NCBI GenBank assembly: GCA_018903055.1
Contig: JAHIPW010000164.1
Span: 1-8,403, forward strand
Direction of reading: 5' to 3'
DNA from: DRGV01 sp018903055 [NCBI: bacterium]
GTDB lineage: Bacteria; UBP18; UBA7526
Length of the DNA stretch: 8,403 nt
Every line of letters starts with the position of its first letter. Position 1 is the stretch's first letter. This document shows, piece by piece, positions 186-8,403 of this stretch. Made by a program: the position numbers and the translations under genes. The notes beneath the pieces were generated by a model. It made no database searches and had not been told where the DNA came from. It worked only from the letters and a program-made list of their open reading frames with translations.

Positions 186-252
186 GTTTACAGTAACCAG
201 CGAACAGTAACCAGCGAAAAGAGAAACTGTAAACTGGTTACTGGTTACTCCG
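186..252 (+). repeat. Heptad array with inverted arms, tuf-rpsJ spacer
   Basis: Nine 7-base words run in phase from 190 to 252. A 14-base unit (ACAGTAA plus CCAGCGA) occurs twice at 190-217. It is followed by words that reverse-complement it, such as AACTGGT (232-238) and TACTGGT (239-245). GTTTACAGT (186-194) is perfectly complementary to ACTGTAAAC (226-234), and CAGTAACCAG (191-200, 205-214) to CTGGTTACTG (234-243). The transcript could fold into a hairpin directly upstream of the rpsJ ribosome-binding block. There is no T-rich tail, so it does not look like an intrinsic terminator. Confidence 0.85.
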
Positions 253-270
253 AGCATAGCGAGGTATAGG
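251..270 (+). promoter_or_regulatory. SD-bearing block before rpsJ
   Basis: The sequence CGAGCATAGCGAGGTATAGG ends at the base before the rpsJ ATG. It matches a block recurring before nine genes in this window (consensus CGAGCGNAGCGAGGT). Its GAGG(T) core is the best Shine-Dalgarno candidate, about 7-8 bases from the start. Confidence 0.75.
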
Positions 271-582
271 ATGCCTAGAAGAGAAAGAATAAGAATAAGA
301 TTAAAGGCCTATGACCACCGGCTCCTGGATCAGTCTGCCCAAGAGATACTTCAGACAGCGAAGCGGACCGGTGCCAAGGTCTCTGGCCCCATCCCCCTGC
401 CAACCAGGATTTCAAAGTATACTGTCCTGCGTTCTCCCCATGTGGATAAGAAGTCGAGGGAGCAGTTTGAGATGAGAATCCACAAGAGGCTCTTGGATAT
501 TCTGGACCCAACCCCCAAGACAATAGATGCCCTGATGAGGCTCGATCTTCCGGCTGGGGTAGATGTAGAAATAAAGCTATAA
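271..582 (+). CDS. rpsJ: 30S ribosomal protein S10 (uS10, NusE)
   Basis: S10 sits in the head of the 30S subunit. In many bacteria it also acts as NusE, binding NusB in rRNA antitermination complexes and NusG in transcription-translation coupling. The 103 residues match the usual family length. Diagnostic segments are [18 protein letters not shown] (residues 6-23) and [20 protein letters not shown] (42-61), the conserved region including the NusB-binding loop. The ATG at 271 is preceded by a good SD block at 251-270, so the start is secure. It is the first gene of the S10 cluster here and follows tuf by 99 bp. That leader contains an inverted heptad array. I do not see anything resembling the E. 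coli S10 leader that L4 binds, although a diverged form could not be recognised by eye. Confidence 0.98.
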
Positions 583-596
583 ACACAATGAACGGT

Positions 597-676
597 CAGT
601 TGGCTGGTTGGATAGTTGGTTGGTTGGATAGGGGAAATCCTAACAAACCAACAAGCCAGCAAACTAACAAACTATC
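597..676 (+). repeat. Octad array with inverted arms, rpsJ-rplC spacer
   Basis: Ten 8-base words lie in phase over 80 bp. The left arm has words such as TGGTTGGA (605-612 and 621-628) and TAGTTGGT (613-620). The right arm has AAACCAAC (645-652), AAGCCAGC (653-660), AAACTAAC (661-668) and AAACTATC (669-676). Right-arm words approximate the reverse complement of left-arm words, so an imperfect hairpin is possible. The last word runs straight into the SD block of rplC. The same final octad and layout recur before rpmC. Confidence 0.85.
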
Positions 677-691
677 CGAACGGAGTGAGAT
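676..691 (+). promoter_or_regulatory. SD-bearing block before rplC
   Basis: CCGAACGGAGTGAGAT abuts the ATG at 692. It is a variant of the recurring CGAGCGNAGCGAGGT block, with GGAG and GAG as possible SD cores. Together with the preceding octad AAACTATC it closely matches the segment before rpmC at 6225-6252. Confidence 0.7.
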
Positions 692-1315
692 ATGAGGGGA
701 ATTCTGGGAAAGAAGCTGGGCATGAGGCAGATATATGATGAGGAGGGAAAAAGCATCCCGGTCACTATTATCCAGGCCGGTCCCTGCTTCGTTACCCAGA
801 TTAAAGAGGGGTCCATCCAGCTTGGCTTTGATAGGACAAAGAAGATTAAAAAACCCCTGAAAGGGCACTTGGCAAAGGCCAAGGTAAACCCGGTTAGAAT
901 ATTGAAAGAGATCTCCATCTCCAAGGGAGAGGAATATATCCTTGGCCAAGAGCTCAAGGTAGACATCTTTAAGGAAGGGGATTATCTCGATATCACGGGA
1001 ATGAGCAAAGGGAAGGGGTTTGCGGGAGTGATGAAGAGATGGGGATTTGCTGGTGGACCGGCCTCCCATGGCTCTACATCCCATAGGAGGGTGGGCTCCA
1101 TCGGTAGTGGTAGCGCCTTCCCCTCAAGGGTCAAGAAGGGAAAGAAGATGCCGGGAAGGATGGGGGGAGATAGGGTCACGGTTCAGAACTTAAAGGTGAT
1201 GAAGGTGGAGCCAGATAAGAACCTCTTATTGGTAGAAGGCGCCGTTCCGGGAGCAAGGGAAGGCTACTTAATAATCAAGGAAGCCCTAAAAAAGAGTAGA
1301 CAAGGTTTACGGTGA
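692..1315 (+). CDS. rplC: 50S ribosomal protein L3 (uL3)
   Basis: L3 is an early 23S rRNA-binding protein. Its long internal loop reaches toward the peptidyl-transferase centre. The 207 residues match the usual bacterial length. The start MRGILGKKLGM (1-11) is the family signature, and residues 104-165 carry the conserved loop, including WGFAGGPASHGS (117-128), KKMPGRMGGDRVTVQNLKV (151-169). The ATG at 692 has an SD block directly upstream. The last three residues (GLR) and the stop are encoded by the first words of a heptad array that continues downstream (1304-1338), so the extreme C-terminus may have been remodelled by repeat growth. The gene follows rpsJ after a 109-bp octad-filled spacer. 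Confidence 0.98.
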   Translation: MRGILGKKLGMRQIYDEEGKSIPVTIIQAGPCFVTQIKEGSIQLGFDRTKKIKKPLKGHLAKAKVNPVRILKEISISKGEEYILGQELKVDIFKEGDYLDITGMSKGKGFAGVMKRWGFAGGPASHGSTSHRRVGSIGSGSAFPSRVKKGKKMPGRMGGDRVTVQNLKVMKVEPDKNLLLVEGAVPGAREGYLIIKEALKKSRQGLR

Positions 1316-1338
1316 ACGGTTAACCGTTAACGGTAAAC
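1304..1338 (+). repeat. Heptad array, palindromic, overlapping the rplC 3' end
   Basis: Five in-phase 7-base words begin with GGTTTAC at 1304-1310, inside rplC, and end with GGTAAAC at 1332-1338. The array is close to its own reverse complement overall, with GTTAACCGTTAAC near the centre. A very similar set of words lies in the rplB-rpsS spacer (3745-3779). The array is interrupted at its end by the 104-bp element at 1338-1441. If that element and one 4-bp duplication are removed, the last word reads straight on into the rplD leader. Confidence 0.8.
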
Positions 1339-1445
1339 CCCGTTAGAAAACTCAACAGACGTATTCTTAAAGGTCTATGTTCTTGAATAAAGATAATATA
1401 CCTGAGAAGTAAAGGCCTATTTAAAAGGATTTCTAACGGGGTAAA
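1334..1445 (+). mobile_element. 104-bp MITE-like insertion upstream of rplD, with TAAA duplications
   Basis: Terminal inverted repeats CCCCGTTAGAAA (1338-1349) and TTTCTAACGGGG (1430-1441) are a perfect 12-bp match. The 104-bp element is flanked on both sides by TAAA (1334-1337 and 1442-1445), as expected of a 4-bp target-site duplication. It has no coding capacity. A second element of exactly the same length and nearly identical termini lies just after rplD (2099-2202), but the interiors show no obvious similarity. Ends, length and duplications support a miniature inverted-repeat element moved in trans. I cannot name the parent transposon family. Without transposition, the termini could still pair as the base of an RNA stem. 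Confidence 0.75.
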
Positions 1446-1453
1446 CGTGACGA

Positions 1454-1473
1454 CGAGCAAAACGAGGAGTTTC
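1454..1473 (+). promoter_or_regulatory. SD-bearing block deciding the rplD start
   Basis: CGAGCAAAACGAGGAGTTTC ends directly before ATG 1474. It matches the recurring start-site block and contains a strong GAGGAG SD core with normal spacing. This favours 1474 over the in-frame GTG at 1447, which would place the block inside the gene. Confidence 0.75.
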
Positions 1474-2097
1474 ATGCCTAAATTGGACCTTTATAATATA
1501 GAAGGAGAGAAAATAGGAGAGGTCTCTCTAAGTAGCAAGGTATTTGGGGCGAAGGTAAATGAGGCCTTGCTCTATGAGGCATTAAGAGCTCAATCTTCTT
1601 CCCGGAGAAAGGGAACCGCCTCTACCAAGGAGAGATCCCAGGTGAGGGGCGGAGGGAGGAAGCCCTGGAGGCAGAAGGGGACTGGAAGAGCCAGGGCTGG
1701 GAGCATTCGTTCCCCCATATGGAAGGGAGGGGGGACGACATTCGGCCCCCATCCTAAGGACTACTCCTATTCTCTTCCCAAGAAGGCCAGGAGAAAAGCC
1801 CTCAGGTGTGCCCTTTCTAGCAAGTTTAAAGAGAAGAAGATTTCAATTTTGGATAAGATAGAGTTAAAAGAACCTAAGACAAAGAGGATGGTTCACATAT
1901 TGGCTAATTTAAGAAGTGGCAAAAAGCCTCTGCTGATCGTCGAAGAGAAAAATGAGATGGTTCGCCGTTCAGCACGTAATATCGAGGGGGTAAAGGTGCT
2001 ATCACCGAATTCACTAAACCTCTATGACTTATTGAACCAGGATCGATTAATCGTTACCAAAGAGGCATTAGGAAGTTTAGAGGAGAACCTGGGATGA
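1474..2097 (+). CDS. rplD: 50S ribosomal protein L4 (uL4)
   Basis: L4 binds domain I of 23S rRNA early in assembly. Its extended loop lines the peptide exit tunnel opposite L22. With the start at ATG 1474 the protein is 207 residues, the usual bacterial size, and begins MPKLDLYNIEGEKIGEV. The loop signature is RKPWRQKGTGRARAGSIRSP at residues 62-81, followed by WKGGGTTFGPHP (83-94). The C-terminal fold includes KPLLIVEEKNE (151-161) and SLNLYDLLNQDRLIVTKEAL (180-199). In gamma-proteobacteria L4 represses its own operon; nothing here shows whether that holds. The gene is bracketed by two 104-bp inverted-repeat elements, and the downstream duplication (TGAA) begins with the rplD stop codon. Confidence 0.97.
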   Translation: MPKLDLYNIEGEKIGEVSLSSKVFGAKVNEALLYEALRAQSSSRRKGTASTKERSQVRGGGRKPWRQKGTGRARAGSIRSPIWKGGGTTFGPHPKDYSYSLPKKARRKALRCALSSKFKEKKISILDKIELKEPKTKRMVHILANLRSGKKPLLIVEEKNEMVRRSARNIEGVKVLSPNSLNLYDLLNQDRLIVTKEALGSLEENLG

Positions 2098-2206
2098 ACC
2101 CCATTAGACTTTCAATATCGTTATATAGTCTTCTACTCGTCTGGATAGCGACTCTAAATATGTTATCAATTTCATTCGTTGGTAGATCAAAGTCTAACGG
2201 GGTGAA
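2095..2206 (+). mobile_element. 104-bp MITE-like insertion at the rplD stop codon, with TGAA duplications
   Basis: The element runs 2099-2202 with termini CCCCATTAGACTTT (2099-2112) and AAAGTCTAACGGGG (2189-2202), complementary at 13 of 14 positions. TGAA flanks both sides (2095-2098 and 2203-2206). The left copy contains the rplD TGA stop, so insertion kept the rplD C-terminus intact. Length (104 bp) and ends match the element at 1338-1441, and the duplications have the same form (TRAA). The interior is AT-rich and non-coding. It fills most of the 127-bp rplD-rplW gap and may have displaced the usual SD block of rplW. Confidence 0.75.
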
Positions 2207-2224
2207 TCATAGAAAAGGTGCGGG

Positions 2225-2515
2225 ATGAAGAGTCCCTACGATATCATAAAGGTTCCCTTAATAACAGAGAAGAGCACTATACTCAAGGAGAGGGAGAATA
2301 AGTATGCCTTTCTTGTTGATAACAGAGCAAATAAGGATGAGATTAAGAGAGCAGTTGAGGAGATATTCAAGGTAAAGGTCCTGGCAGTCAATACCTCCTA
2401 CCTGAGAGGCAAGATAAAGAGGATGGGCAAGCATAGTGGCAAGACCCCGGATATGAAGAAGGCCGTTCTCACTTTAAAGGAAGGGGAGAAGATAGAAATA
2501 TTTGAGGGAACCTAA
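2225..2515 (+). CDS. rplW: 50S ribosomal protein L23 (uL23)
   Basis: L23 lies at the polypeptide exit-tunnel rim, where it contacts trigger factor and the signal recognition particle. The 96 residues match the usual length. Recognisable segments are [16 protein letters not shown] (5-20), [20 protein letters not shown] (26-45), and the loop [20 protein letters not shown] (56-75), followed by [18 protein letters not shown]. The ATG at 2225 is the only sensible start. Its upstream sequence, AAAAGGTGCGGG, gives only a weak AGGTG-type SD and lacks the GAGCGNAGCGAGG block seen before many neighbours. That is consistent with the insertion just upstream having separated the gene from its original leader. 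Confidence 0.97.
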
Positions 2516-2525
2516 GATAAGTAAC

Positions 2526-2760
2526 AATTTAAAATGCCCTTCGCCTCGCTTCTCTCGATCCCGAGGATCTTCGAGATCCGAGGGGCAGGATACCTCGCCC
2601 CTCTGGGATCTCGCAGATCCCATCGGGATCAAGAGGAAGTATCAAGCGAAGTATCCCGAGGGAAACCGAGGGGCAAAGTGAAAAATGCCCCCTACAATCT
2701 GCAAGATTGCGGGGACCAAAGTCCTGGAAATTCATTGAATTTCACAGGGCAAAATTTAAA
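2526..2760 (+). repeat. Palindrome-rich mosaic element A, rplW-rplB spacer
   Basis: This fills most of the 349-bp gap (2516-2864), which has no credible gene. AATTTAAA occurs at both edges (2526-2533 and 2753-2760), a possible 8-bp duplication around ends ATGCCC and GGGC. Inside are hairpins with 3-base loops: GGATCT/AGATCC (2565-2579), GGGATCT/AGATCCC (2605-2621), CAATCT/AGATTG (2695-2709) with a CCCC/GGGG base, and GAAATTC/GAATTTC (2727-2743). The part at 2535-2674 is related to the element at 5425-5526: similar left end, shared CAGGATACCTCGCC, and a 33-bp stretch (2597-2629) identical to 5460-5492. A short + frame across it looks repeat-derived and non-coding. From 2812 to the rplB SD I see nothing notable. 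Confidence 0.75.
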
Positions 2761-2783
2761 GTGTCTTGGCCAGTAAGCAAAGT

Positions 2784-2813
2784 GAATAAAAGAGACAACT
2801 TGCTTGGCTCATT
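2784..2813 (+). repeat. Left arm of 30-bp inverted repeat bracketing rplB
   Basis: This segment, core AGAGACAACTTGCTTG, is the reverse complement of 3682-3711 at 28 of 30 positions; 24 bp (2788-2811) match with a single difference. The arms enclose the rplB SD and the whole gene. One arm overlaps the rplB stop codon. Pairing in the transcript would make a stem closing a loop of roughly 870 bases. It could also be a relic of an inverted duplication or cassette end. No flanking target duplication is evident. Confidence 0.85.
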
Positions 2814-2864
2814 CTGCATTGATAATTGTTAGTTGATTACGATTTTTAAGAACGGAGCAAATTT

Positions 2865-3686
2865 ATGGCAATAAAGAAATACAGGCCAACTAGCCCATCG
2901 CGGAGATCGATAACCGGGGCGACTTTTGAAGAACTTACCAGGACCAAACCCCACAAGCCCCTCCTCAAGCCCTTGAAGGAGAGGGCGGGGAGGAGCAGAG
3001 AAGGAAGGATTACCATGCGCCATAGGGGGGGAGGCCATAAGAAGAGATATCGGATCATTGATTTTAAAAGAGATAAGTTCCATATCCCGGCCAGGGTGAT
3101 CTCCATTGAGTATGATCCCAACCGGACCTCTTACATCGCTCTTCTCTCTTATCGGGATGGGGAGAAGAGGTATATCATTGCTCCCCAGGGCTTAAAGGTG
3201 GGGGATGAGGTAATATCTGGTGAGAACGTTGATATCAGGATAGGGAACTCCCTACCACTTAAATATATCCCTCCCGGGACTACGGTTCATAATGTGGAGC
3301 TTACCAAAGGCCGAGGCGCCCAGCTGGCACGAGGAGCAGGCACCTTCGTTCAGCTCATGGCTAAAGAGGGAAGGTATGCCCATCTGCGGCTCTCTTCAGG
3401 AGAGATAAGGAAGGTCCTTCTGGACTGTCTGGCGACCATTGGTCAGGTGGGGAATGTCGACTGGGGACGCATCTCCTGGGGCAAGGCAGGAAGGTCTCGT
3501 CATTTTGGCTTTCGTCCCAAGGTAAGAGGAGTGGCCATGAACCCTGTCGACCATCCCCATGGTGGTGGAGAGGGGAAGAGCTCTGGTGGTCGGCATCCGG
3601 TAACTCCTTGGGGAAAGCCCACTAAGGGATATAAAACAAGGAAGAAAAAGCCCTCTGACAGGTTAATTATAAAGAGGCGAAAATGA
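2865..3686 (+). CDS. rplB: 50S ribosomal protein L2 (uL2)
   Basis: L2 is a primary 23S rRNA-binding protein needed for subunit association and for the structure of the peptidyl-transferase centre. At 273 residues it has the standard length. It begins [17 protein letters not shown]. The N-terminal RNA-binding part includes [20 protein letters not shown] (51-70), and the C-terminal part contains [20 protein letters not shown] (226-245). The second segment holds the conserved His (residue 230 here) reached by the loop near the catalytic centre. The SD is GGAG in GAACGGAGCAAATTT before ATG 2865, which partly resembles the recurring start-site block. The gene is bracketed by a 30-bp inverted repeat (2784-2813 and 3682-3711). 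Confidence 0.98.
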
Positions 3687-3711
3687 GTCAAGCAAGTTGT
3701 CTCTTTTCTTC
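3682..3711 (+). repeat. Right arm of 30-bp inverted repeat, overlapping the rplB stop
   Basis: This is the reverse complement of 2784-2813 with two differences. The arm includes the rplB TGA (3684-3686), so part of the repeat lies in or at the end of coding sequence. This suggests the upstream arm may be an inverted copy of the rplB 3' junction rather than the reverse. Confidence 0.85.
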
Positions 3712-3744
3712 GCCACGGCTCAGAAAATAACGGGTAGATATCCA

Positions 3745-3779
3745 GGTTTACGGTTAACGGTTCACGGTTAACGGTAAAC
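3745..3779 (+). repeat. Heptad array, rplB-rpsS spacer
   Basis: Five in-phase words run from GGTTTAC (3745-3751) to GGTAAAC (3773-3779), with GGTTAAC twice and GGTTCAC once between them. The first and last words are the same as in the array at 1304-1338. It is nearly self-complementary because of the GTTAAC centres, and ends just before the rpsS SD block. Confidence 0.8.
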
Positions 3780-3787
3780 GATAAGAT

Positions 3788-3806
3788 GAACAGAGTGAGG
3801 TTGAAA
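3788..3806 (+). promoter_or_regulatory. SD-bearing block deciding the rpsS start
   Basis: GAACAGAGTGAGGTTGAAA ends directly before ATG 3807 and has a GAGGT SD core. It matches the recurring block, and its first half resembles the one before rplC. Choosing the in-frame ATG at 3786 would put this SD inside the gene and add seven residues absent from the family. Confidence 0.75.
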
Positions 3807-4091
3807 ATGGGTAGATCGAGGAAGAAGGGCCCCTTTATCGTTCCAGAGTTATTGAAGAAGATCGAGGCCATGAATAAGACCGGAAAGAAGACCGTGATCA
3901 AGACCTGGTCTCGTTCCTCAACCATATTCCCCCAGATGGTGGGCCATACCCTGGCGGTCCATAATGGGAAGAGGTTCATCCCGGTCTACATTACAGAGGA
4001 TATGGTGGGCCACAAGCTGGGTGAATTCTCACCCACCAGGATATTCCGGGTACATGGGGCCCATACGGAAAGGGTAACTGCTATTAAATAA
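3807..4091 (+). CDS. rpsS: 30S ribosomal protein S19 (uS19)
   Basis: S19 is in the 30S head, where it contacts S13 and the intersubunit bridge region. From ATG 3807 the protein is 94 residues, within the usual 90-95. It begins [11 protein letters not shown], the family N-terminus. Core motifs are [20 protein letters not shown] (32-51), [20 protein letters not shown] (53-72) and [14 protein letters not shown] (74-87). The FRVHGAH segment differs slightly from the common FRGH form. An ATG 21 bases upstream (3786) would add MNRVRLK, but the SD block at 3788-3806 argues against it. Confidence 0.97.
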
Positions 4092-4096
4092 AAATA

Positions 4097-4194
4097 CAGT
4101 GATCGGTGAACAGTGAACTGTGATCAGCTGAAAACAGAAATCGGTTATTAGAAAACGGAAATCAGTAGAGAAAATAGAAAACAGAAAACCGAAA
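4097..4194 (+). repeat. Fourteen in-phase heptads, left arm of rpsS-rplV spacer
   Basis: Fourteen consecutive 7-base words keep phase over 98 bp. They begin with CAGTGAT (4097-4103) and CGGTGAA, drift to AAACAGA (4132-4138) and AAACGGA (4153-4159), and end with ACAGAAA (4181-4187) and ACCGAAA (4188-4194). Word content changes gradually while the 7-base period holds. The words are answered in reverse-complement, mirrored order on the right (4202-4298), so the 226-bp gap can be read as one long imperfect hairpin. Confidence 0.85.
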
Positions 4195-4201
4195 AATACT
4201 A

Positions 4202-4298
4202 ATTTCAGATTTCTGATTTCCCTACAGTTTTCAGATTTCCCTGCCCCGTAGGCTTGTCCTTCGGGGTGTCAACTGTTTTCAGACTTCACTGATTACTG
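4202..4298 (+). repeat. Right arm of the rpsS-rplV array, interrupted by a 27-bp hairpin segment
   Basis: The words ATTTCAG (4202-4208), ATTTCTG (4209-4215) and ATTTCCC (4216-4222) are followed by TTCAGAT and TTCCCTG (ending 4243). After a 27-bp break come AACTGTT (4271-4277), TTCAGAC, TTCACTG and ATTACTG (4292-4298). They pair in mirrored order with the left arm: TTTCTG-type words near the centre and CACTG-type words at the outside. The break holds the stem CCCCG(T)AGG / CCT(T)CGGGG at 4244-4266 with loop CTTGT. That stem looks like a separate palindrome placed inside the array. Confidence 0.75.
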
Positions 4299-4317
4299 CG
4301 AATGAAATGAGGTAGGG
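4297..4317 (+). promoter_or_regulatory. SD-bearing block before rplV
   Basis: This divergent copy of the recurring block ends AAATGAGGTAGGG directly before ATG 4318. GAGGT is the SD core, about 5-6 bases from the start. Confidence 0.65.
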
Positions 4318-4680
4318 ATGGAAGCAAAGGCAAAATTGAAATTCGTCAGAGTCGCTCCCAGAAAAATGAGGAAGGTCCTGGACCTCATCAGAAGGAAAGA
4401 GACAGAAGAGGCCTTAAGCATCCTCAGGTTTACTTCTGGAAGAGCCTCTCCCATCTTGCAGAAGCTCCTGCGCTCTGCCTTGGCCAATGCCAAAGTAAAA
4501 GAGAATCTCTATGTGGCCCAGGCGACCTGTGACCAGGGTCCCACCCTATCCAGGTGGAGGCCCCGTTCCATGGGAAAGGCGAATAAAATAAGGAAGAGAA
4601 CAAGTCATATCACCATCGTCTTGAAAGAGAAGCAAGGGGAGTCAGAAGTAAAAAGTAAGAAGTTAAAAGTAAAAAGTTAA
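4318..4680 (+). CDS. rplV: 50S ribosomal protein L22 (uL22)
   Basis: L22 spans the 50S subunit, and its beta-hairpin lines the peptide exit tunnel beside L4. The 120 residues are slightly longer than the common 110-115. Family features are AKLKFVRVAPRKMRKVLDLI (5-24), ALANAKVKENLYVAQA (54-69), the hairpin region DQGPTLSRWRPRSMGKANKI (72-91), and the terminal strand KRTSHITIVLKE (93-104). Residues 111-120 (VKSKKLKVKS) are encoded entirely by a 7-base tandem array (4648-4682), which also provides the stop codon. The tail therefore appears to come from repeat sequence grown into, or replacing, the original 3' end. It should be tolerated because the family's C-terminus is variable. Confidence 0.97.
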   Translation: MEAKAKLKFVRVAPRKMRKVLDLIRRKETEEALSILRFTSGRASPILQKLLRSALANAKVKENLYVAQATCDQGPTLSRWRPRSMGKANKIRKRTSHITIVLKEKQGESEVKSKKLKVKS

Positions 4681-4721
4681 ACTAAATTTTTCATTCTTCA
4701 TTTTGGATTTTCAATTCATAT
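4648..4721 (+). repeat. Heptad arrays crossing the rplV stop codon
   Basis: Five words GTAAAAA, GTAAGAA, GTTAAAA, GTAAAAA and GTTAAAC occupy 4648-4682 in perfect phase. They encode the last ten residues of L22 and its TAA. A second set, T-rich and roughly complementary, follows at 4687-4721 (for example TTTTTCA at 4687-4693 and TTCTTCA at 4694-4700). Together they form the A-rich and T-rich arms of a weak hairpin just before the rpsC SD. Confidence 0.85.
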
Positions 4722-4739
4722 CGCCTGAAAGGAGATATT

Positions 4740-5399
4740 GTGGGACAGAAGGTTCATCCTGAGAGCTTCCGATTGGGGATCATAAAGGACTGGAAGAGCA
4801 AGTGGTTTGCCAAGAAGGATTACGGCGACCTACTATTAGAAGACTTTCGCATTCGTAAGTTCATAAAGGAAAGGCTCTATCGTGCTGGTATCTCTAAAAT
4901 TGAGATCTATCGGGCTGGAAAACGCTTAAGAATCAATATCTTTGCTGCTCGTCCCGGGATCGTCATTGGAAGAAAAGGGGCGGAGGTGGAAAGGTTAAAG
5001 GAGGACCTCTCCACAATAACGGATAAGGAGATGTATCTTAACATCCAGGAGATAGAAGCCCCCTTCTTAGATGCCCAGCTGGTGGCAGAGAGCGTTGCCC
5101 TCCAACTTGAGAAAAGGTTTGGCTTCCGAAGGGCTATGAAGAAGATGGTGGAGAATGCCATGACAGCGGGAGCCGGGGGAATAAAGATTGCCTGCAGTGG
5201 TCGCCTGGGGGGAGCGGAGATCGCTAGAACAGAATGGTATAGAAAAGGAAGAGTTCCTCTGCATACCCTAAGAGCAAATATCGATTATGGGTTCAGCGAG
5301 GCCCACACAACATATGGAAGGATTGGGGTAAAGGTCTGGATATTTAAAGAAGATAAGCCCGAGGAGAAGGAAAAGACTAAAGAAGCGAAGAAAGCTTAG
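4740..5399 (+). CDS. rpsC: 30S ribosomal protein S3 (uS3)
   Basis: S3 lies at the mRNA entry side of the 30S head and contributes to helicase activity and RNA binding. The 219 residues fit the family. The protein starts at GTG 4740, read as [14 protein letters not shown], with the strong SD AAAGGAGAT seven or so bases upstream. The N-terminal KH domain shows [17 protein letters not shown] at 74-90, with the GxxG loop as GRKG (77-80). The C-terminal S3 domain includes [19 protein letters not shown] (149-167), [20 protein letters not shown] (170-189) and [10 protein letters not shown] (192-201). The final 16 residues are a charged Lys/Glu tail, common in S3. Its SD differs from the recurring block used by most neighbours. 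Confidence 0.98.
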
Positions 5400-5424
5400 C
5401 AACACAGAATTATCGTCAAACGGT

Positions 5425-5526
5425 TGCCCTTCACTTCGTTCAGGATACCTCGCCAAAGTGCCCCTCTGGGATCTCGCAGATCCCATCGGGATTGAGAGAA
5501 AGTATCCTGAGCCAACGGCGAGGGGC
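5425..5526 (+). repeat. Palindrome-rich mosaic element B, rpsC-rplP spacer
   Basis: This sits in the 308-bp gap 5400-5707, which has no gene on the + strand. It is related to element A (2535-2674): left ends TGCCCTTCACTTCG versus TGCCCTTCGCCTCG, shared CAGGATACCTCGCC (5441-5454), and 33 identical bases at 5460-5492 with the hairpin GGGATCTCGCAGATCCC. A direct CGGTTG lies at both edges (5421-5426 and 5526-5531). CAGGATAC (5441-5448) pairs with GTATCCTG (5502-5509), and CCTCGCC (5448-5454) with GGCGAGG (5517-5523). Those pairings cross, so both together would make a pseudoknot. Relative to A it lacks one internal hairpin of about 33 bp. Confidence 0.75.
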
Positions 5527-5559
5527 GGTTGTGAGGCTCGTATCAATGATATACTGTAA

Positions 5560-5664
5560 TATTAAAAATCAAAGTGTAAAAATTAAAATGACATATAAAA
5601 ATGTAAAATGTTTCAAAATTTTTGATTTGTAATTTTGATATTTAATTTTTGATATTTAATTTTT
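5560..5664 (+). repeat. AT-rich array with inverted character, rpsC-rplP spacer
   Basis: This is the remaining part of the 308-bp gap. The right half contains a perfect 14-bp direct repeat (GATATTTAATTTTT at 5637-5650 and 5651-5664, two heptads each), preceded by a 13-bp relative at 5624-5636. The left half (5560-5610) is A-rich with loosely complementary words such as AAAAATTAAAATG. The two halves could pair as an AU-rich stem. Phase in the left half is not clean. Confidence 0.65.
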
Positions 5665-5686
5665 CAACGTAACCGATAAACGAACA

Positions 5687-5707
5687 CCGACGAAGTGAGG
5701 GTTCGGA
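5687..5707 (+). promoter_or_regulatory. SD-bearing block before rplP
   Basis: CCGACGAAGTGAGGGTTCGG, followed by one A, ends directly before ATG 5708. It is a copy of the recurring start-site block with GAGG as the SD core. Confidence 0.7.
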
Positions 5708-6115
5708 ATGTTGATGCCTAAGAGAGTAAAATATAGGAAACAGCAGAGGGGCAGGATGAAGGGGAAGGCCTTTCGCGGTTCAAAGATAAGCTTTGGGGAG
5801 TATGGTCTTCAAGCCCTGGAACCTAGCTGGGTAACCACCAGGCAGATAGAGGCAGCAAGAGTGGCCCTTACCCACTTCATTAAAAGAGGAGGGAAAATCT
5901 GGGTCAGGATCTTTCCTGATAAGTCAGTGACTAAGAAACCCCTGGAGACCAGGATGGGAAAGGGGAAGGGGGCCCCTGAGATTTGGGTAGCGGTAGTTAA
6001 GCCAGGCAGAATCCTATTTGAACTGGCTGGGGTATCAGAAGCCATTGCCCAGGAGGCCATGAATAGGGCTGCCCACAAGCTACCTATAAAGACGAAGTTT
6101 GTTCAGAGAAAATAG
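5708..6115 (+). CDS. rplP: 50S ribosomal protein L16 (uL16)
   Basis: L16 is a late-assembly 50S protein near the A-site tRNA elbow, important for tRNA accommodation. The 135 residues match the family. It begins [20 protein letters not shown]; many L16 proteins start MLMPKR, so ATG 5708 is chosen over the in-frame ATG 5714. Conserved stretches are [20 protein letters not shown] (29-48), [20 protein letters not shown] (61-80) and [20 protein letters not shown] (81-100), then [17 protein letters not shown]. Arg82 is in the loop whose arginine is hydroxylated in E. coli; modification here is unknown. A 308-bp repeat-filled gap separates it from rpsC, unusual because these two genes usually touch. 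Confidence 0.98.
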
Positions 6116-6131
6116 GATGCTTACAGTGAAC

Positions 6132-6232
6132 AGTCAGTTGGTTAGCCAGTTAACCAGTCGGCCAGTTAGCCAGTTAATTAAGAAAAACCAACAAACTGGC
6201 AAACCGGAAAACCGGCAAACTGGTAAACTATC
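6132..6232 (+). repeat. Octad array with inverted arms, rplP-rpmC spacer
   Basis: Left-arm 8-base words are in phase at 6132-6179, for example GGTTAGCC (6140-6147), AGTTAACC (6148-6155) and AGTTAGCC (6164-6171). Right-arm words are in phase at 6185-6232: AAACCAAC (6185-6192), AAACTGGC (6193-6200), AAACCGGC (6209-6216) and AAACTATC (6225-6232). The arms are approximate reverse complements, and the SD block of rpmC follows. The layout, and even the words AAACCAAC and AAACTATC, are the same as in the rpsJ-rplC spacer 5.5 kb away. Confidence 0.85.
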
Positions 6233-6252
6233 CGAGCGGAGCGAGGTATAGT
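6232..6252 (+). promoter_or_regulatory. SD-bearing block before rpmC
   Basis: CCGAGCGGAGCGAGGTATAG, followed by one T, directly precedes ATG 6253. This is the closest copy to the consensus of the recurring block and almost the same as that before rpsJ (251-270). GAGGT is the SD core. Confidence 0.8.
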
Positions 6253-6453
6253 ATGCCCAAGAAAGAGGATTTAAGAGAGTTAAATATTCCAGAGCTTGAA
6301 GCGAAGATCTCCTCTTTGAAAGAGGATATCTTCAATAAAAAGGTTGCGAAGTCCAGCGGAGGACTTGCCAATCCCTTAGCCATTCGCCAGGTAAGGCGGG
6401 AGATAGCAAGGGTCAAGACCATCCTTCGCGAAAGGAGAGGAGAGACCAAGTGA
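6253..6453 (+). CDS. rpmC: 50S ribosomal protein L29 (uL29)
   Basis: L29 is a small two-helix protein at the exit-tunnel rim next to L23. The 66 residues match the usual size and read [20 protein letters not shown] followed by helix-forming Lys/Glu-rich sequence. The L29 signature is near the C-terminus: [19 protein letters not shown] (residues 40-58). The start is fixed by the SD block at 6232-6252. Its TGA stop (6451-6453) overlaps the GTG start of rpsQ in GTGA, so the two are probably translationally coupled. Confidence 0.96.
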
Positions 6454-6692
6454 AAAAGGTGAGAGTGGGAAAAGTAGTAAGCAACAGGATGGATAAGACA
6501 GCGGTGGTCAGGGTGGAGAGAACCTTTCGTCATCCTCTATATGGTAAGATAATAAAGCGTGCCAAGCGCTTCAAAGCCCATGATCCGAGGAACGAGTGTA
6601 AGATTGGGGATAAGGTAGAGATTATTGAAACCAGGCCCCTCTCTAAGGATAAGAGATGGCGAGTGGCAAAAATCTTAGAAAAGGCTAAGTAA
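6450..6692 (+). CDS. rpsQ: 30S ribosomal protein S17 (uS17)
   Basis: S17 is a primary 16S rRNA-binding protein with an OB fold, needed early in 30S assembly. The 80 residues match the family. It starts at GTG 6450, read [20 protein letters not shown], and overlaps rpmC by 4 bp. A purine-rich GGAGAGGAGAG at the end of rpmC supplies the SD. Conserved parts are [20 protein letters not shown] (12-31), [20 protein letters not shown] (36-55) and [20 protein letters not shown] (57-76). This is the only overlapping gene pair in the window, so translational coupling is likely. Confidence 0.97.
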
Positions 6693-6707
6693 GAATGAGA
6701 TACCCAG

Positions 6708-6756
6708 CTACAGGCTGCAGGTCACAGGCTACAGGCTGCAGGTCATGGGCTATATG
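6708..6756 (+). repeat. Heptad array, left arm of rpsQ-rplN spacer
   Basis: CTACAGG, CTGCAGG and TCACAGG (6708-6728) are followed by CTACAGG and CTGCAGG again (6729-6742), then TCATGGG and CTATATG. An 18-bp segment repeats exactly with a 21-base period (6707-6724 and 6728-6745). An AG/AATAAG-rich stretch follows (6757-6777). Both are answered by complementary-style words at 6824-6892, placing a central unrepeated stretch of about 45 bp in the loop. Confidence 0.85.
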
Positions 6757-6823
6757 CGAGAATAAGAGAATAAGTAAATTCTGTCCTGGGTGGGTTCGCA
6801 TTTGGTTAGGACGTATCAACCTA

Positions 6824-6892
6824 TTTTCTTATTGACTTATTTTACTTGCGGCTTGTGGCATGAGGCTTGTAACTTGTGGCTTGAGGCTTGAG
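6824..6892 (+). repeat. Heptad array, right arm of rpsQ-rplN spacer
   Basis: T-rich words (TTTTCTT at 6824-6830, ATTGACT, TATTTTA) are followed in the same phase by CTTGCGG (6845-6851), CTTGTGG, CATGAGG and so on, ending with two GGCTTGAG-type words up to 6892. The order mirrors the left arm: T-rich words opposite the A-rich stretch, and CTTGTGG-type words opposite CTACAGG. The 7-base phase continues through the SD block to the ATG of rplN. Confidence 0.8.
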
Positions 6893-6910
6893 CGAGCGGA
6901 GCGAGGAGAG
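6893..6910 (+). promoter_or_regulatory. SD-bearing block deciding the rplN start
   Basis: CGAGCGGAGCGAGGAGAG lies directly before ATG 6911 and contains GAGGAG, a strong SD. It is a copy of the recurring block. It argues for 6911 against the in-frame ATG at 6860, which lies within the heptad repeat. Confidence 0.8.
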
Positions 6911-7276
6911 ATGATCCAAGAGAGAACCGTCTTGAAAGTTGCGGATAATACTGGGGTGAGAAAGGTTATGTGTATCAGGATCTTGGGCGGAAGCAAGAGA
7001 AGATATGGCTGGCTGGGAAGTATTATCGTAGCTAGCGTCAAGGAGGCCATTCCTACCAGTGAGATAAAGAAGGGATCTGTGGTGCGTGCGGTCATCGTGC
7101 GAACGAAGAAGGAGACCAGAAGAGAAGATGGTTCCTATATAAGGTTTGATGAGAATGCCTGTGTCCTGGTCAATGCCCAAGGGGAGCTATTGGGAACCAG
7201 GGTATTCGGACCAGTAGCTAGTGAGTTGAAGGAGAAGTTCGCCAAACTAATTTCTCTTGCCCCAGAAGTCATTTAA
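6911..7276 (+). CDS. rplN: 50S ribosomal protein L14 (uL14)
   Basis: L14 is on the 50S interface and forms an intersubunit bridge with 16S rRNA; the silencing factor RsfS also docks on it. From ATG 6911 it has 121 residues, against the usual 122. It starts [20 protein letters not shown]. Further conserved stretches are [20 protein letters not shown] (21-40), [20 protein letters not shown] (55-74), [12 protein letters not shown] (77-88), [13 protein letters not shown] (95-107) and the end [10 protein letters not shown]. The frame stays open upstream to 6860, encoding 17 extra residues from the repeat array. Family length and the SD block reject that extension. Confidence 0.97.
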
Positions 7277-7301
7277 AGAGTTCGGAGTTTACAGTTCGCC
7301 T

Positions 7302-7337
7302 CTCGTCCCGAGGGGACTCGAGGTCCCCGAGGGAGAG
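7302..7337 (+). repeat. Hairpin with tandem GA mismatches, rplN-rplX spacer
   Basis: GGGGAC (7312-7317) pairs with GTCCCC (7323-7328) around loop TCGAG. Both sides are flanked by GA, then TCCC (7306-7309) pairs with GGGA (7331-7334), and CTC (7302-7304) with GAG (7335-7337) leaving one bulged G. The GA/GA internal mismatch could form tandem sheared pairs. The same sequence can be read as direct repeats CCCGAGGG on both sides of a small palindrome. Confidence 0.7.
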
Positions 7338-7371
7338 TTCGGAGAAAGAATACACCGAACACCGAACTCAA

Positions 7372-7396
7372 GCGAGCCCGTCAAAGACGGGCGAGC
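7372..7396 (+). repeat. GCCCGTC/GACGGGC hairpin, rplN-rplX spacer
   Basis: GCCCGTC (7376-7382) pairs perfectly with GACGGGC (7386-7392) around loop AAA. It is flanked by GCGA on the left and GAGC on the right, the same GA/GA layout as the hairpins at 7302-7337 and 2559-2585. There is no T-run after it, so it is not a convincing terminator. Confidence 0.7.
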
Positions 7397-7410
7397 GTGC
7401 TCCGAACTAA

Positions 7411-7430
7411 CCGAGCGAAGCGAGGTAAAG
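7411..7430 (+). promoter_or_regulatory. SD-bearing block deciding the rplX start
   Basis: CCGAGCGAAGCGAGGTAAAG directly precedes GTG 7431. It is a near-consensus copy of the recurring block, with GAGGT as the SD core. It supports GTG 7431 as the start rather than the long upstream extension. Confidence 0.8.
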
Positions 7431-7754
7431 GTGGGTTTTAAGATAAGAAAGGGAGATAAGGTAAGAATCATCGCTGGTAAGGAGAGGAAGAAGGAAGGGA
7501 AAGTCCTGGGTCTTTTTCCAAAGGAAGAGAAGGTGCTCATTCAGGGCCTCAACTTCGTAAAGAGACATACCAAGCCAAGGGGTGAAGGAAAGCCCTCTGG
7601 GATTATAGAGAAGGAAGCCCCCTTGGCTATCTCCAATGTTGTGCTTATCTGCCCCCGGTGTAATCAGCCTACCAAGATAGGATACAAAATAGTAGAAAAG
7701 GGTAAGAAATTGAGGGTCTGTAAGAAGTGTGGAGAGACCATAGATAAGGAATAA
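7431..7754 (+). CDS. rplX: 50S ribosomal protein L24 (uL24), zinc-ribbon type
   Basis: L24 is an assembly initiator that binds the 5' part of 23S rRNA near the exit tunnel. With GTG 7431 as start it has 107 residues, normal for the family, and begins MGFKIRKGDKVRIIAGKERK. The N-terminal KOW motif spans about residues 5-32. Further conserved sequence is VLIQGLNFVKRHTKP (35-49). The C-terminal part has two Cys pairs, CPRC (74-77) and CKKC (97-100), separated by 19 residues. This C-x2-C...C-x2-C arrangement is seen in some bacterial L24 proteins and may bind zinc. The frame is open far upstream through the repeat-rich spacer, but that stretch has no family similarity. The stop ends one base before rplE. 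Confidence 0.96.
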   Translation: MGFKIRKGDKVRIIAGKERKKEGKVLGLFPKEEKVLIQGLNFVKRHTKPRGEGKPSGIIEKEAPLAISNVVLICPRCNQPTKIGYKIVEKGKKLRVCKKCGETIDKE

Positions 7755-7755
7755 G

Positions 7756-8295
7756 ATGGCTAGACTAAAAGAAAGATACCAGAAAGAGATCATACCCCTT
7801 TTAATGAAGAGGTTTAACTATACCAACCTCTATCAGGTTCCCAGGATAGAGAAGGTGGTAATCAACGTTGGCATAGGAAAGGCCTTAGGCGATCCCAAAT
7901 TACTGGATGCCGCAGCAAATGAACTGGCCCAGATTACGGGTCAGAGACCCCTGATTACCAAGGCAAGGAGAGACATCGCTTCCTTCAAAGTGAGGAAGGG
8001 GGCGAAGATCGGCTGTAAGGTGACCTTGAGAAAAGAGTGCATGTACGAATTCCTGGATAGGCTCATAAATATCACACTACCCAGGATAAAAGACTTCAGG
8101 GGTCTATCCCCGGATTCTTTCGATGGGAAAGGAAATTATACCATAGGGATAACAGAACAGATCGTATTTCCCGAAATAGAATATGATAAAGTACCCCTTA
8201 TCCATGGAATGGATATCACTATTGTAACTACTACAGAATCGAATAAGGAGGCAAGAGAGCTTCTCTCTGCCTTCGGCTTCCCCCTCAAACGCTAA
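7756..8295 (+). CDS. rplE: 50S ribosomal protein L5 (uL5)
   Basis: L5 is in the 50S central protuberance, where it binds 5S rRNA and contacts P-site tRNA. The 179 residues match the usual 179-180. It begins MARLKERYQKEIIPLLMKRF. Family sequences include VPRIEKVVINVGIGKA (28-43), ITGQRPLITKARRDIASFKV (59-78), KGAKIGCKVTLR (80-91), MYEFLDRLINITLPRIKDFR (95-114) and the C-terminal GITEQIVFPEI. ATG 7756 follows the rplX stop by one base, with AAGGA at the end of rplX as SD, so translation is probably coupled. Downstream is an octad array, then presumably rpsN beyond the window. Confidence 0.98.
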   Translation: MARLKERYQKEIIPLLMKRFNYTNLYQVPRIEKVVINVGIGKALGDPKLLDAAANELAQITGQRPLITKARRDIASFKVRKGAKIGCKVTLRKECMYEFLDRLINITLPRIKDFRGLSPDSFDGKGNYTIGITEQIVFPEIEYDKVPLIHGMDITIVTTTESNKEARELLSAFGFPLKR

Positions 8296-8319
8296 CCACT
8301 GAGAACACAGAACCGTAGA

Positions 8320-8403
8320 AAGCAGTTAGACAGTGAGACAGTGGAACAGTTAGACGGTTACACTGAATTTTAAACTGTCAATCTGTCAAACAGTCAGACT
8401 GTC
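8320..8403 (+). repeat. Octad array with inverted arms downstream of rplE (runs off window)
   Basis: Left-arm words AAGCAGTT (8320-8327), AGACAGTG (8328-8335 and again 8336-8343), GAACAGTT (8344-8351) and AGACGGTT (8352-8359) are in 8-base phase. The right arm is AAACTGTC (8372-8379), AATCTGTC (8380-8387), AAACAGTC (8388-8395) and AGACTGTC (8396-8403), in phase to the last base. Arms are approximate reverse complements. By analogy with the other spacers, an SD block and the next gene should follow just outside the window. Confidence 0.8.

Follow-up and report, generated by a model that had tools for sequence, protein, structure and literature searches.

Hairpin arrays of short degenerate words in the spacers of a ribosomal-protein operon: probable dispersed non-coding repeats with slippage

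The window analysed here, i.e. the whole stretch of 8,403 nucleotides (nt) of contig JAHIPW010000164.1 (C159) from the draft genome of DRGV01 sp018903055 (G000: 1.09 Mb, 191 contigs, 85% complete), carries a ribosomal-protein operon in the order tuf(3' end)-S10-L3-L4-L23-L2-S19-L22-S3-L16-L29-S17-L14-L24-L5. The gene names were assigned from gene order and sequences, not from annotation. The genes are separated by spacers that contain tandem arrays of degenerate words, seven or eight bases long, often with two arms that can pair as a hairpin. The pattern is real and strong, and we think it probable that a community of small hairpin repeats, non-coding and dispersed, resides in the spacers and is in addition subject to slippage. 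The gene starts of our home-made caller differ from those used in Table 1 at L4, S19, L16, L14 and L24; the alignments with kin suggest that the caller's later start may be right for L4 and S19, and at L14 and L24 the caller's gene extends into the spacer.

The original prediction, made from the letters of the window, had named ten stretches that could be cut into words of exactly seven or eight bases. In each of them the self-identity at the claimed lag was 0.61-0.86, whereas 1000 dinucleotide shuffles gave 0.24-0.34 (p=0.001 for every stretch, which is the floor of the test), and in 10/10 the claimed period was the best local period among 4-12. All 13 spacers of the window were then scored at their best period between 4 and 20 (500 shuffles) and for inverted repeats (60 shuffles), where the L3-L4 and L22-S3 spacers were started at 1300 and 4640, respectively, to take in arrays that begin inside genes. 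Ten spacers exceeded all shuffles in period, those without a significant period being L4-L23 (p=0.11), L23-L2 (p=0.17) and L14-L24 (p=0.10), and ten exceeded all 60 shuffles in inverted-repeat score, those without a significant score being L3-L4, L22-S3 and L14-L24. No Rfam family matched the window at its gathering score. The features are collected in Table 1.

Table 1. Word-array hairpins, inserted elements and boxes in the window (positions counted from its first letter; p and shuffle values from the per-spacer tests).
Feature	Position	Strand	Support
Heptamer hairpin, tuf-S10 spacer, CAGTAACCAGCGAA words	191..249	+	period 7 p=0.002; inverted repeat 24 vs shuffle max 16
CGAGCATAGCGAGG box of GAGCGNAGCGAGG type just before the S10 start codon, with Shine-Dalgarno (SD)-like GAGG	251..264	+	read from sequence
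Octamer hairpin, S10-L3 spacer	593..678	+	period 8 p=0.002; inverted repeat 32 vs shuffle max 20
GGTTNAC heptamer array/hairpin over the 3' end of the L3 gene	1304..1338	+	period 7 p=0.002
Element like a miniature inverted-repeat transposable element (MITE), ends CCCCGTTAGA/TCTAACGGGG, TAAA direct repeat, within the L3-L4 heptamer hairpin	1338..1441	.	
Second MITE-like element, TGAA direct repeat, 1 nt past the L4 stop codon	2099..2202	.	
GC-rich hairpin insert in older L23-L2 heptamer spacer	2537..2673	.	joined flanks match uninterrupted G003 spacer
Second GC-rich hairpin insert, L23-L2 spacer	2688..2749	.	
GGTTNAC heptamer hairpin, L2-S19 spacer	3745..3784	+	period 7 p=0.002; inverted repeat 22 vs shuffle max 20
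Heptamer hairpin, S19-L22 spacer, AGAAAACAGAAATC words	4099..4239	+	period 7 p=0.002; inverted repeat 38 vs shuffle max 26
AGTAAAA heptamer array overlapping the 3' end of L22	4640..4716	+	period 7 p=0.002; inverted repeat 18 vs shuffle max 26, not significant
A+T-rich heptamer-type hairpin, S3-L16 spacer	5555..5666	+	best period 14 p=0.002; inverted repeat 50 vs shuffle max 26
Octamer hairpin, L16-L29 spacer	6134..6235	+	period 8 p=0.002; inverted repeat 32 vs shuffle max 18
Heptamer hairpin, S17-L14 spacer; CTACAGG words upstream, CTTGAGG downstream	6711..6890	+	period 7 p=0.002; inverted repeat 34 vs shuffle max 24
Octamer hairpin after L5, ended by the contig edge	8323..8403	+	period 8 p=0.002; inverted repeat 26 vs shuffle max 22

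The arrays extend through the genome. Two collections of G000 were analysed: contigs C1-C28, picked regardless of repeats (G000u; 9/28 read N, so that 132 kb and 87 spacers remain), and the window plus 12 contigs (G000b). Only the former gives unbiased counts, because the contigs of the latter were selected for matching a window spacer; the hairpin, polarity and dispersal counts below pool both. (The contigs that read N throughout were L125, L126, L128, L130, L132, L171, L172, L174 and L178.) In the 87 unselected spacers the pooled self-identity, compared with 60 shuffles, reached z 20.2 at lag 7 and 10.8 at lag 8, the two lags for which the original prediction had expected an excess over shuffled spacers, and furthermore 9.0 at lag 10, a period beyond the two predicted ones, 14.8 at lag 14 and 9.4 at lag 21; lag 6 gave z 6.3, several other lags 2 to 4, and there was no excess at lag 9 (z 0.6) or lag 11 (z -0.6). 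Arrays that beat all of 100 shuffles (periods 4-20) were present in 41/87 of these spacers and in 68/111 of the selected ones, 7 being the most frequent best period in the genome. A single genome holds dozens of distinct array consensus words, and with a mismatch fraction to the consensus of 0.30-0.34 and so many vocabularies the units are not near-perfect copies.

For comparison, 60 genomes were sought as relatives, of which five belong to the same family (G001-G005, with G001 in the same genus) and the others share the domain only. The family genomes are drafts, 53-93% complete, and G004 served in searches only, no stretch having been taken from it by place. Arrays were found in 23/39 spacers of G001, 65/115 of G003 and 13/29 of G005; a clear lag-10 peak appeared, among the genomes tested, only in G000 and G003. 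As a control we took 102 L2-gene loci of other lineages (the named L2 loci are at most 70% identical among the 80 matches listed, from which own or near records were possibly excluded). These had arrays in 19/749 spacers, 5 of them of period 7, at a threshold that is not quite equal (60 shuffles instead of 100, as also for the outside genomes below, and here a minimum score of 12). Their pooled z was 1.3 at lag 7 and -1.0 at lag 8, and their main lag peaks lay at multiples of three, the pattern that missed coding sequence would give.

The second expectation, an enrichment of inverted arms, was likewise borne out. Counting Watson-Crick pairs only, a strong hairpin (score at least 30) was found in 96/342 codirectional spacers, taken from G000, G001, G002, G003 and G005, and in 0/342 shuffles (one per spacer). 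Among 144 hairpins that scored 24 or more and had arms of 18 or more, both arms were arrays in 69, and in 63/69 the two arms had the same period, as had been predicted: 23 heptamer, 32 octamer and 6 decamer hairpins, one of period 9 and one of period 12. Equal periods are partly expected, because the arms are complementary. Arrays and hairpins also coincide at the level of spacers (both in 118, array only in 72, hairpin only in 56, neither in 96; Fisher p=4e-6). Judged by reading, the arms of one family differ in word consensus. The hairpins have a position and a direction: the predicted placement before start codons is found in strong hairpins, whose 3' end lies a median 36 nt ahead of the called start, and their 5' arm, read along the genes, is the purine-richer one in 75/90 (the 96 less 6 ties; p=9e-11). 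Several words are oriented (sense/antisense: GGTTNACGGTTNAC 11/1, CAGTTNNCCAGTT 8/0, GAAACGGNGA 11/0, AATGNAAAATG 15/2), others not significantly so (CAGTAACCAG 18/13, CTTGNRRCTTG 13/6, CAGGCTNCAGGCT 6/3).

That each spacer has its own vocabulary and that no one repeat is being copied, as first proposed, does not hold genome-wide. By blastn, 163/198 fetched spacers of G000 match another spacer of the genome, and 0 do so after shuffling; the corresponding numbers are 76/115 in G003 (1 shuffled), 22/40 in G001, 13/29 in G005 and 5/57 in G002. Of the candidate spacer pairs within and between genomes, 380/529 align over at least 45 bp at 78% identity or more. The octamer hairpin of the S10-L3 spacer, for example, has a near copy (93% identical over 67 bp) at C55:1511-1577, between what we read as nusG and rplK. 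In G001, the heptamer family that occupies tuf-S10 in the window lies in S10-L3 and an octamer family lies in tuf-S10, the families of the two spacers being swapped. Copies recur across slots and slots change family; dispersed repeat families in interchangeable slots replace the view of locally invented words.

The slots themselves turn over in genomes whose reciprocal best proteins have a median identity to G000 of 86% (G003) and 88% (G001). The L2-S19, S19-L22, S3-L16 and L16-L29 gaps, which measure 99 (120 if S19 starts as in kin), 226, 308 and 137 nt in the window, are at most 8 nt or overlapping in both G002 and G003: the L2 and S19 genes abut or overlap and the S19-L22 spacer is 7-8 nt (both also in G005), the S3-L16 spacer is 6 nt and the L16-L29 spacer 1 nt. 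Among 20 syntenic codirectional gene pairs of G000 and G003, ten are separated in either genome by a called spacer of 50 nt or more, one of which (S3-L16) is a start miscall in G003. By eye, the sequences are unrelated in seven of the nine remaining shared slots; in one the 3' end is retained, and L22-S3 is A+T-rich and was assigned neither way.

Where spacers are homologous, part of their change proceeds by whole words. The gap lengths in the 380 aligned pairs fall from 90 at 1 nt to 11 at 5 nt, rise to 16, 26 and 20 at 6, 7 and 8 nt, and drop again to 7 at 9 nt and 11 at 10 nt; the octamer spacer between tuf and S10 is longer in G001 and G005 (123 nt) than in G003 (99 nt). The slippage component of the original prediction gains support from this rise at 6-8 nt.

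Elements are also nested in each other. In L23-L2, the flanks and the outer array are kept between G000 and G003, and G000 has gained inserts: two GC-rich ones break an AAAATGC-type array, both at a junction between AATG and CAAA, and the joined flanks align gap-free with the G003 spacer, a few substitutions apart, as far as a downstream point where the two sequences part. Heptamer arrays interrupted by GC-rich multi-hairpin inserts with CCC...GGG ends were seen elsewhere too, a further case being L161:766-1060. Removal of the 1338-1441 element and joining of its flanks restores an uninterrupted L3-L4 heptamer hairpin. Pairs of inverted ends of the CCCCGTTAGA type occur 21 times in the fetched loci by a loose pattern (one, at L140, probably outside the family), and a stricter pattern is present in 5/6 family genomes. 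A 4-bp direct repeat flanks 8/21 pairs, where swapped flanks would lead one to expect 1.4; all but one of these eight have a length of 98-110 bp. MITEs are small, non-coding, intergenic elements with inverted ends, and the CCCCGTTAGA family has both the terminal inverted repeats and the target-site duplication by which they are defined; the word-array hairpins share with it the inverted arms, and a flanking direct repeat was seen only in the CCCCGTTAGA family.

Taken together, the recurrence of families, the turnover of slots, the whole-word gaps, the nesting, the polarity and a pairing that is symmetric at the DNA level (mismatch counts below) point to the following scheme. Each family would have two arms, 5' and 3', which are complementary to each other and are both degenerate tandem arrays with a common word length of 7, 8 or 10. 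Copies would spread between intergenic slots, probably by copying linked to single-stranded DNA (ssDNA) or to replication. Replication slippage on the hairpin-forming array would add or remove whole words, by which the period is kept and the spelling drifts, and selection would remove insertions in genes, so that repeats are left beside stop and start codons.

Several observations weigh against this scheme. The genomes compared are incomplete, and G002, a member of the same family, is poor in arrays (9/56, weak) and in repeats; it has only 2/43 strong hairpins, and dropping its N-containing spacers changes little (lag 7 z 3.1, lag 8 z 6.0). Gaps of 1-4 nt outnumber those of 7-8 nt (182 vs 46) and form the majority of those up to 8 nt, so that whole-word steps are only part of the change. 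Target duplications and clean boundaries were seen for the CCCCGTTAGA family alone; for the word-array hairpins, no duplication was visible by eye against diverged empty slots. The polarity suggests oriented insertion or selection, the latter possibly directed against pyrimidine-rich sense arms. Lastly, no mobilising enzyme was found: PF01797 (Y1 transposase), PF00078 (reverse transcriptase) and PF01609 (DDE_Tnp_1) have matches in 0/6 draft family genomes (the control for the PF01797 search matched in 5/14), and PF00665 (rve) has one match each in G000 and G002, the G002 copy with an internal stop. With three of these four families absent, REP-associated tyrosine transposases (RAYTs), reverse transcriptase and DDE transposases were rejected as drivers, other transposase families not having been searched.

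The alternatives have to be judged against the same data. It had been suggested that the hairpins are selected as transcript structures, and in long operons they might stabilise mRNA, insulate translation or block Rho; the distance to the start codon and the polarity would agree with this, as would the folding energies of the sense spacers, which lie well under those of shuffles (median z -2.78 and -3.12 in the two G000 sets; -0.17 in G002). However, the arm mismatches show no preference for wobble (213 G·T vs 194 A·C on the coding strand, p=0.37; the control, a small set of 28 tRNA acceptor stems of the fetched loci, gave 7 G·T vs 0 A·C), and in the spacers of G000 and G003 the difference in stability between sense and antisense equals that of shuffles (-2.62 vs -2.52 kcal/mol, p=0.92). 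The mere count of spacers with the more stable sense strand (220/336) was discarded as a sign of selection at the RNA level, the shuffles being biased alike (162/242 observed, 174/243 shuffled). The low folding energies are therefore most readily explained as a side effect of inverted DNA. Moreover, kin manage without spacers at several of the same positions, and the codirectional location says little, because convergent or divergent spacers are rare in G000 and G003 anyway (17/313). Arm swaps do not help this explanation either. With arms trimmed to the pairing part, which is biased to the own partner, own arms scored above the family mean in 69/87 hairpins and were best or equal best in only 38/87; with arms split at the loop, which we judge biased to the swapped partner, own minus swapped was positive in 166 and negative in 235 of 428 pairs. 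The two tests thus have opposite biases and opposite signs, and of the mirrored word order proposed at the outset the complementarity stands at the level of families, while no consistent element-specific matching was found. On balance we regard selection on transcripts as unlikely; the pairing seems to be inherited with the repeat family rather than maintained by selection on RNA, and the hairpin repeats need not be functional. A strongly folding spacer thus need not mean a functional RNA, which is a trap for the prediction of non-coding RNA in uncultured genomes.

Local manufacture, by slipped-strand expansion and subsequent template-switch inversion with no movement between sites, would explain the whole-word gaps and the equal periods of the arms, and the accessible part of PMC4060949 mentions that template switching can make imperfect palindromes perfect. 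Local manufacture is at odds with the long stretches of similar sequence that recur in unrelated slots and in different genera and with the difference in consensus between the two arms of a family, which are no fresh inverted copy, and we hold it to be quite unlikely. That the arrays might be sites for a repeat-recognising DNA- or RNA-binding protein near starts, by analogy with the proposal for the TAACTGA repeats of Beggiatoaceae, would fit their position and polarity and has a precedent in ribosomal-protein operons (PMC4679880, as far as its available text goes), yet the dozens of consensus words per genome and a variation that is barely concentrated in columns (3.33 vs 3.09 under the null for period 7, 3.82 vs 3.64 for 8, 2.55 vs 2.44 for 10) make it very improbable. 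On the same figures, only slightly above the null, we dropped a rule by which periods 7, 8 and 10 would consist of six paired plus 1, 2 or 4 variable bases. Finally, a draft of 191 contigs at 85% completeness, with nine of the 28 sampled contigs reading N, invites the thought of an assembly or binning artefact; the pattern recurs, however, in three more family genomes and weakly in a fourth, it is found in unrelated genomes, in one of them on a 2.78-Mb contig, and the copies differ in detail as evolved repeats do, so that an artefact is hardly credible.

Dispersed repeats with slippage thus remain the explanation that we favour. A further-reaching version, about which we are more doubtful than hopeful, is that the period and not the sequence is what is transmitted, replaceable hairpin cassettes of 7-, 8- or 10-nt words moving among slots with a preferred polarity and without the absent enzyme families. 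If this were true, the period would be set by the step length of a copying process based on replication or ssDNA, and this process would also have left its traces in the similar heptamer hairpins of scattered unrelated lineages. In a lineage whose spacers are largely built of such repeats, with three discrete periods, paired arms, a polarity and a fast turnover of slots in the most conserved operon, comparing strains can put the origin of the period to the test.

Such arrays do exist elsewhere. We screened 290 genomes with one word pattern (GGTTNAC x3), which matched 6/6 family genomes and 5/284 others, the backward control matching one genome (G184), ten times. Of 20 outside stretches taken, four short ones (G060, G200, G230, G280) were left out of the analysis. 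Array spacers in the outside genomes selected by GGTTNAC numbered 15/35 in G070 (lag 7 z 14.0), 10/27 in G045, 8/22 in G248, 1/13 in G175 and 1/5 in G120, and 0/9 and 1/9 in two outside genomes taken without this criterion. In G070 and G045 lag 8 was raised as well (z 5.9 and 4.8, respectively), although arrays of period 8 are few in these two genomes. With arrays in unrelated genomes, the heptamer-array kind is not confined to this lineage. By inspection, the loci L202 and L207 (G070), L211-L213 (G045) and L219 (G248) contain heptamer arrays of other words, in several vocabularies and some with hairpins by eye. With GGTTNAC words left out of the count, the five GGTTNAC-selected outside genomes share, summed, 43/168 heptamer classes with 26.7 expected, G248 having no excess (7 vs 7.3); a vocabulary shared across unrelated lineages is suggestive only.

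Short tandem heptamer repeats of cyanobacteria are known under the name STRR, and the kinship with such repeats that had been supposed from the sequence is supported here. Long simple sequence repeats (LSSRs) with an excess of 7-nt units were described by Mrazek 2007 (cited here through PMC4679880 and PMC4692102), with polymerase slippage as the proposed origin, and heptamers of Calothrix are known through PMC4692102. Our spacers resemble LSSR/STRR heptamers in their intergenic 7-nt arrays above chance, and differ from these simple direct repeats, as the available excerpts present them, by the hairpin arms, the additional periods 8 and 10 and the degenerate units. According to the accessible portion of MacGregor 2015 (PMC4679880), TAACTGA direct repeats occur, with a scattered phylogeny, in Beggiatoaceae, Cyanobacteria and Bacteroidetes (169 sets, one of them inverted) as intergenic heptamer arrays that in one genome mostly stand oriented just before start codons, some in ribosomal-protein operons; related heptamers break some arrays, and 7-nt-step indels dominate between two Cyanothece strains. 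Within that portion, our arrays are alike in intergenic heptamers, ribosomal-protein operon sites, pre-start position and the polarity of several word patterns, others being non-polar, and unlike in having paired arms, a multitude of vocabularies and periods of 7, 8 and 10 instead of one fixed word in direct arrays. For GGGAATC heptamers of Xanthomonas and Nostoc, the part of Rehm 2015 (PMC4692102) at hand gives 70 and 75 convergent two-site cases in two Xanthomonas genomes, 83% conservation of gene context between two Xanthomonas and a quadruplex potential of the G-rich word; it also notes, as of 2015, the lack of any detailed literature about heptameric repeats. The likeness to these, on what that part reports, lies in intergenic heptamers and some inverted pairs, the difference in the many words and the slot turnover found here. 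TAACTGA is absent from our listed period-7 array consensus words, and GGGAATC equals none of them. As dispersed intergenic palindromes in many copies, the hairpins also recall repetitive extragenic palindromic (REP) sequences and REPINs, from which they differ in arms that are tandem word arrays and in the absence of the Y1 transposase family of the accompanying RAYTs. Multi-vocabulary, multi-period hairpin arrays were not described among the matches listed by full-text searches of a literature collection that lacks most subscription papers. Heptamer repeats as such being already known, what is new is this hairpin form of them, with its many vocabularies and its three periods.

Two minor features accompany the arrays. 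Boxes of the GAGCGNAGCGAGG type occur in 26 codirectional spacers in sense and in 0 in antisense orientation (all sets), at a median 5 nt before the called start; in the window they stand directly before start codons at 251-264, 6234-6246 and 6894-6906. They may represent a lineage-specific SD context, and if they do serve as the SD region, the 26/0 orientation is to be expected. Finally, arrays enter the 3' ends of L3 (1304-1315) and L22 (4640-4680) and both proteins thereby end in a short C-terminal tail outside the alignment with kin: the alignments stop at residue 193-203 of 207 in L3 and at residue 113-117 of 120 in L22.

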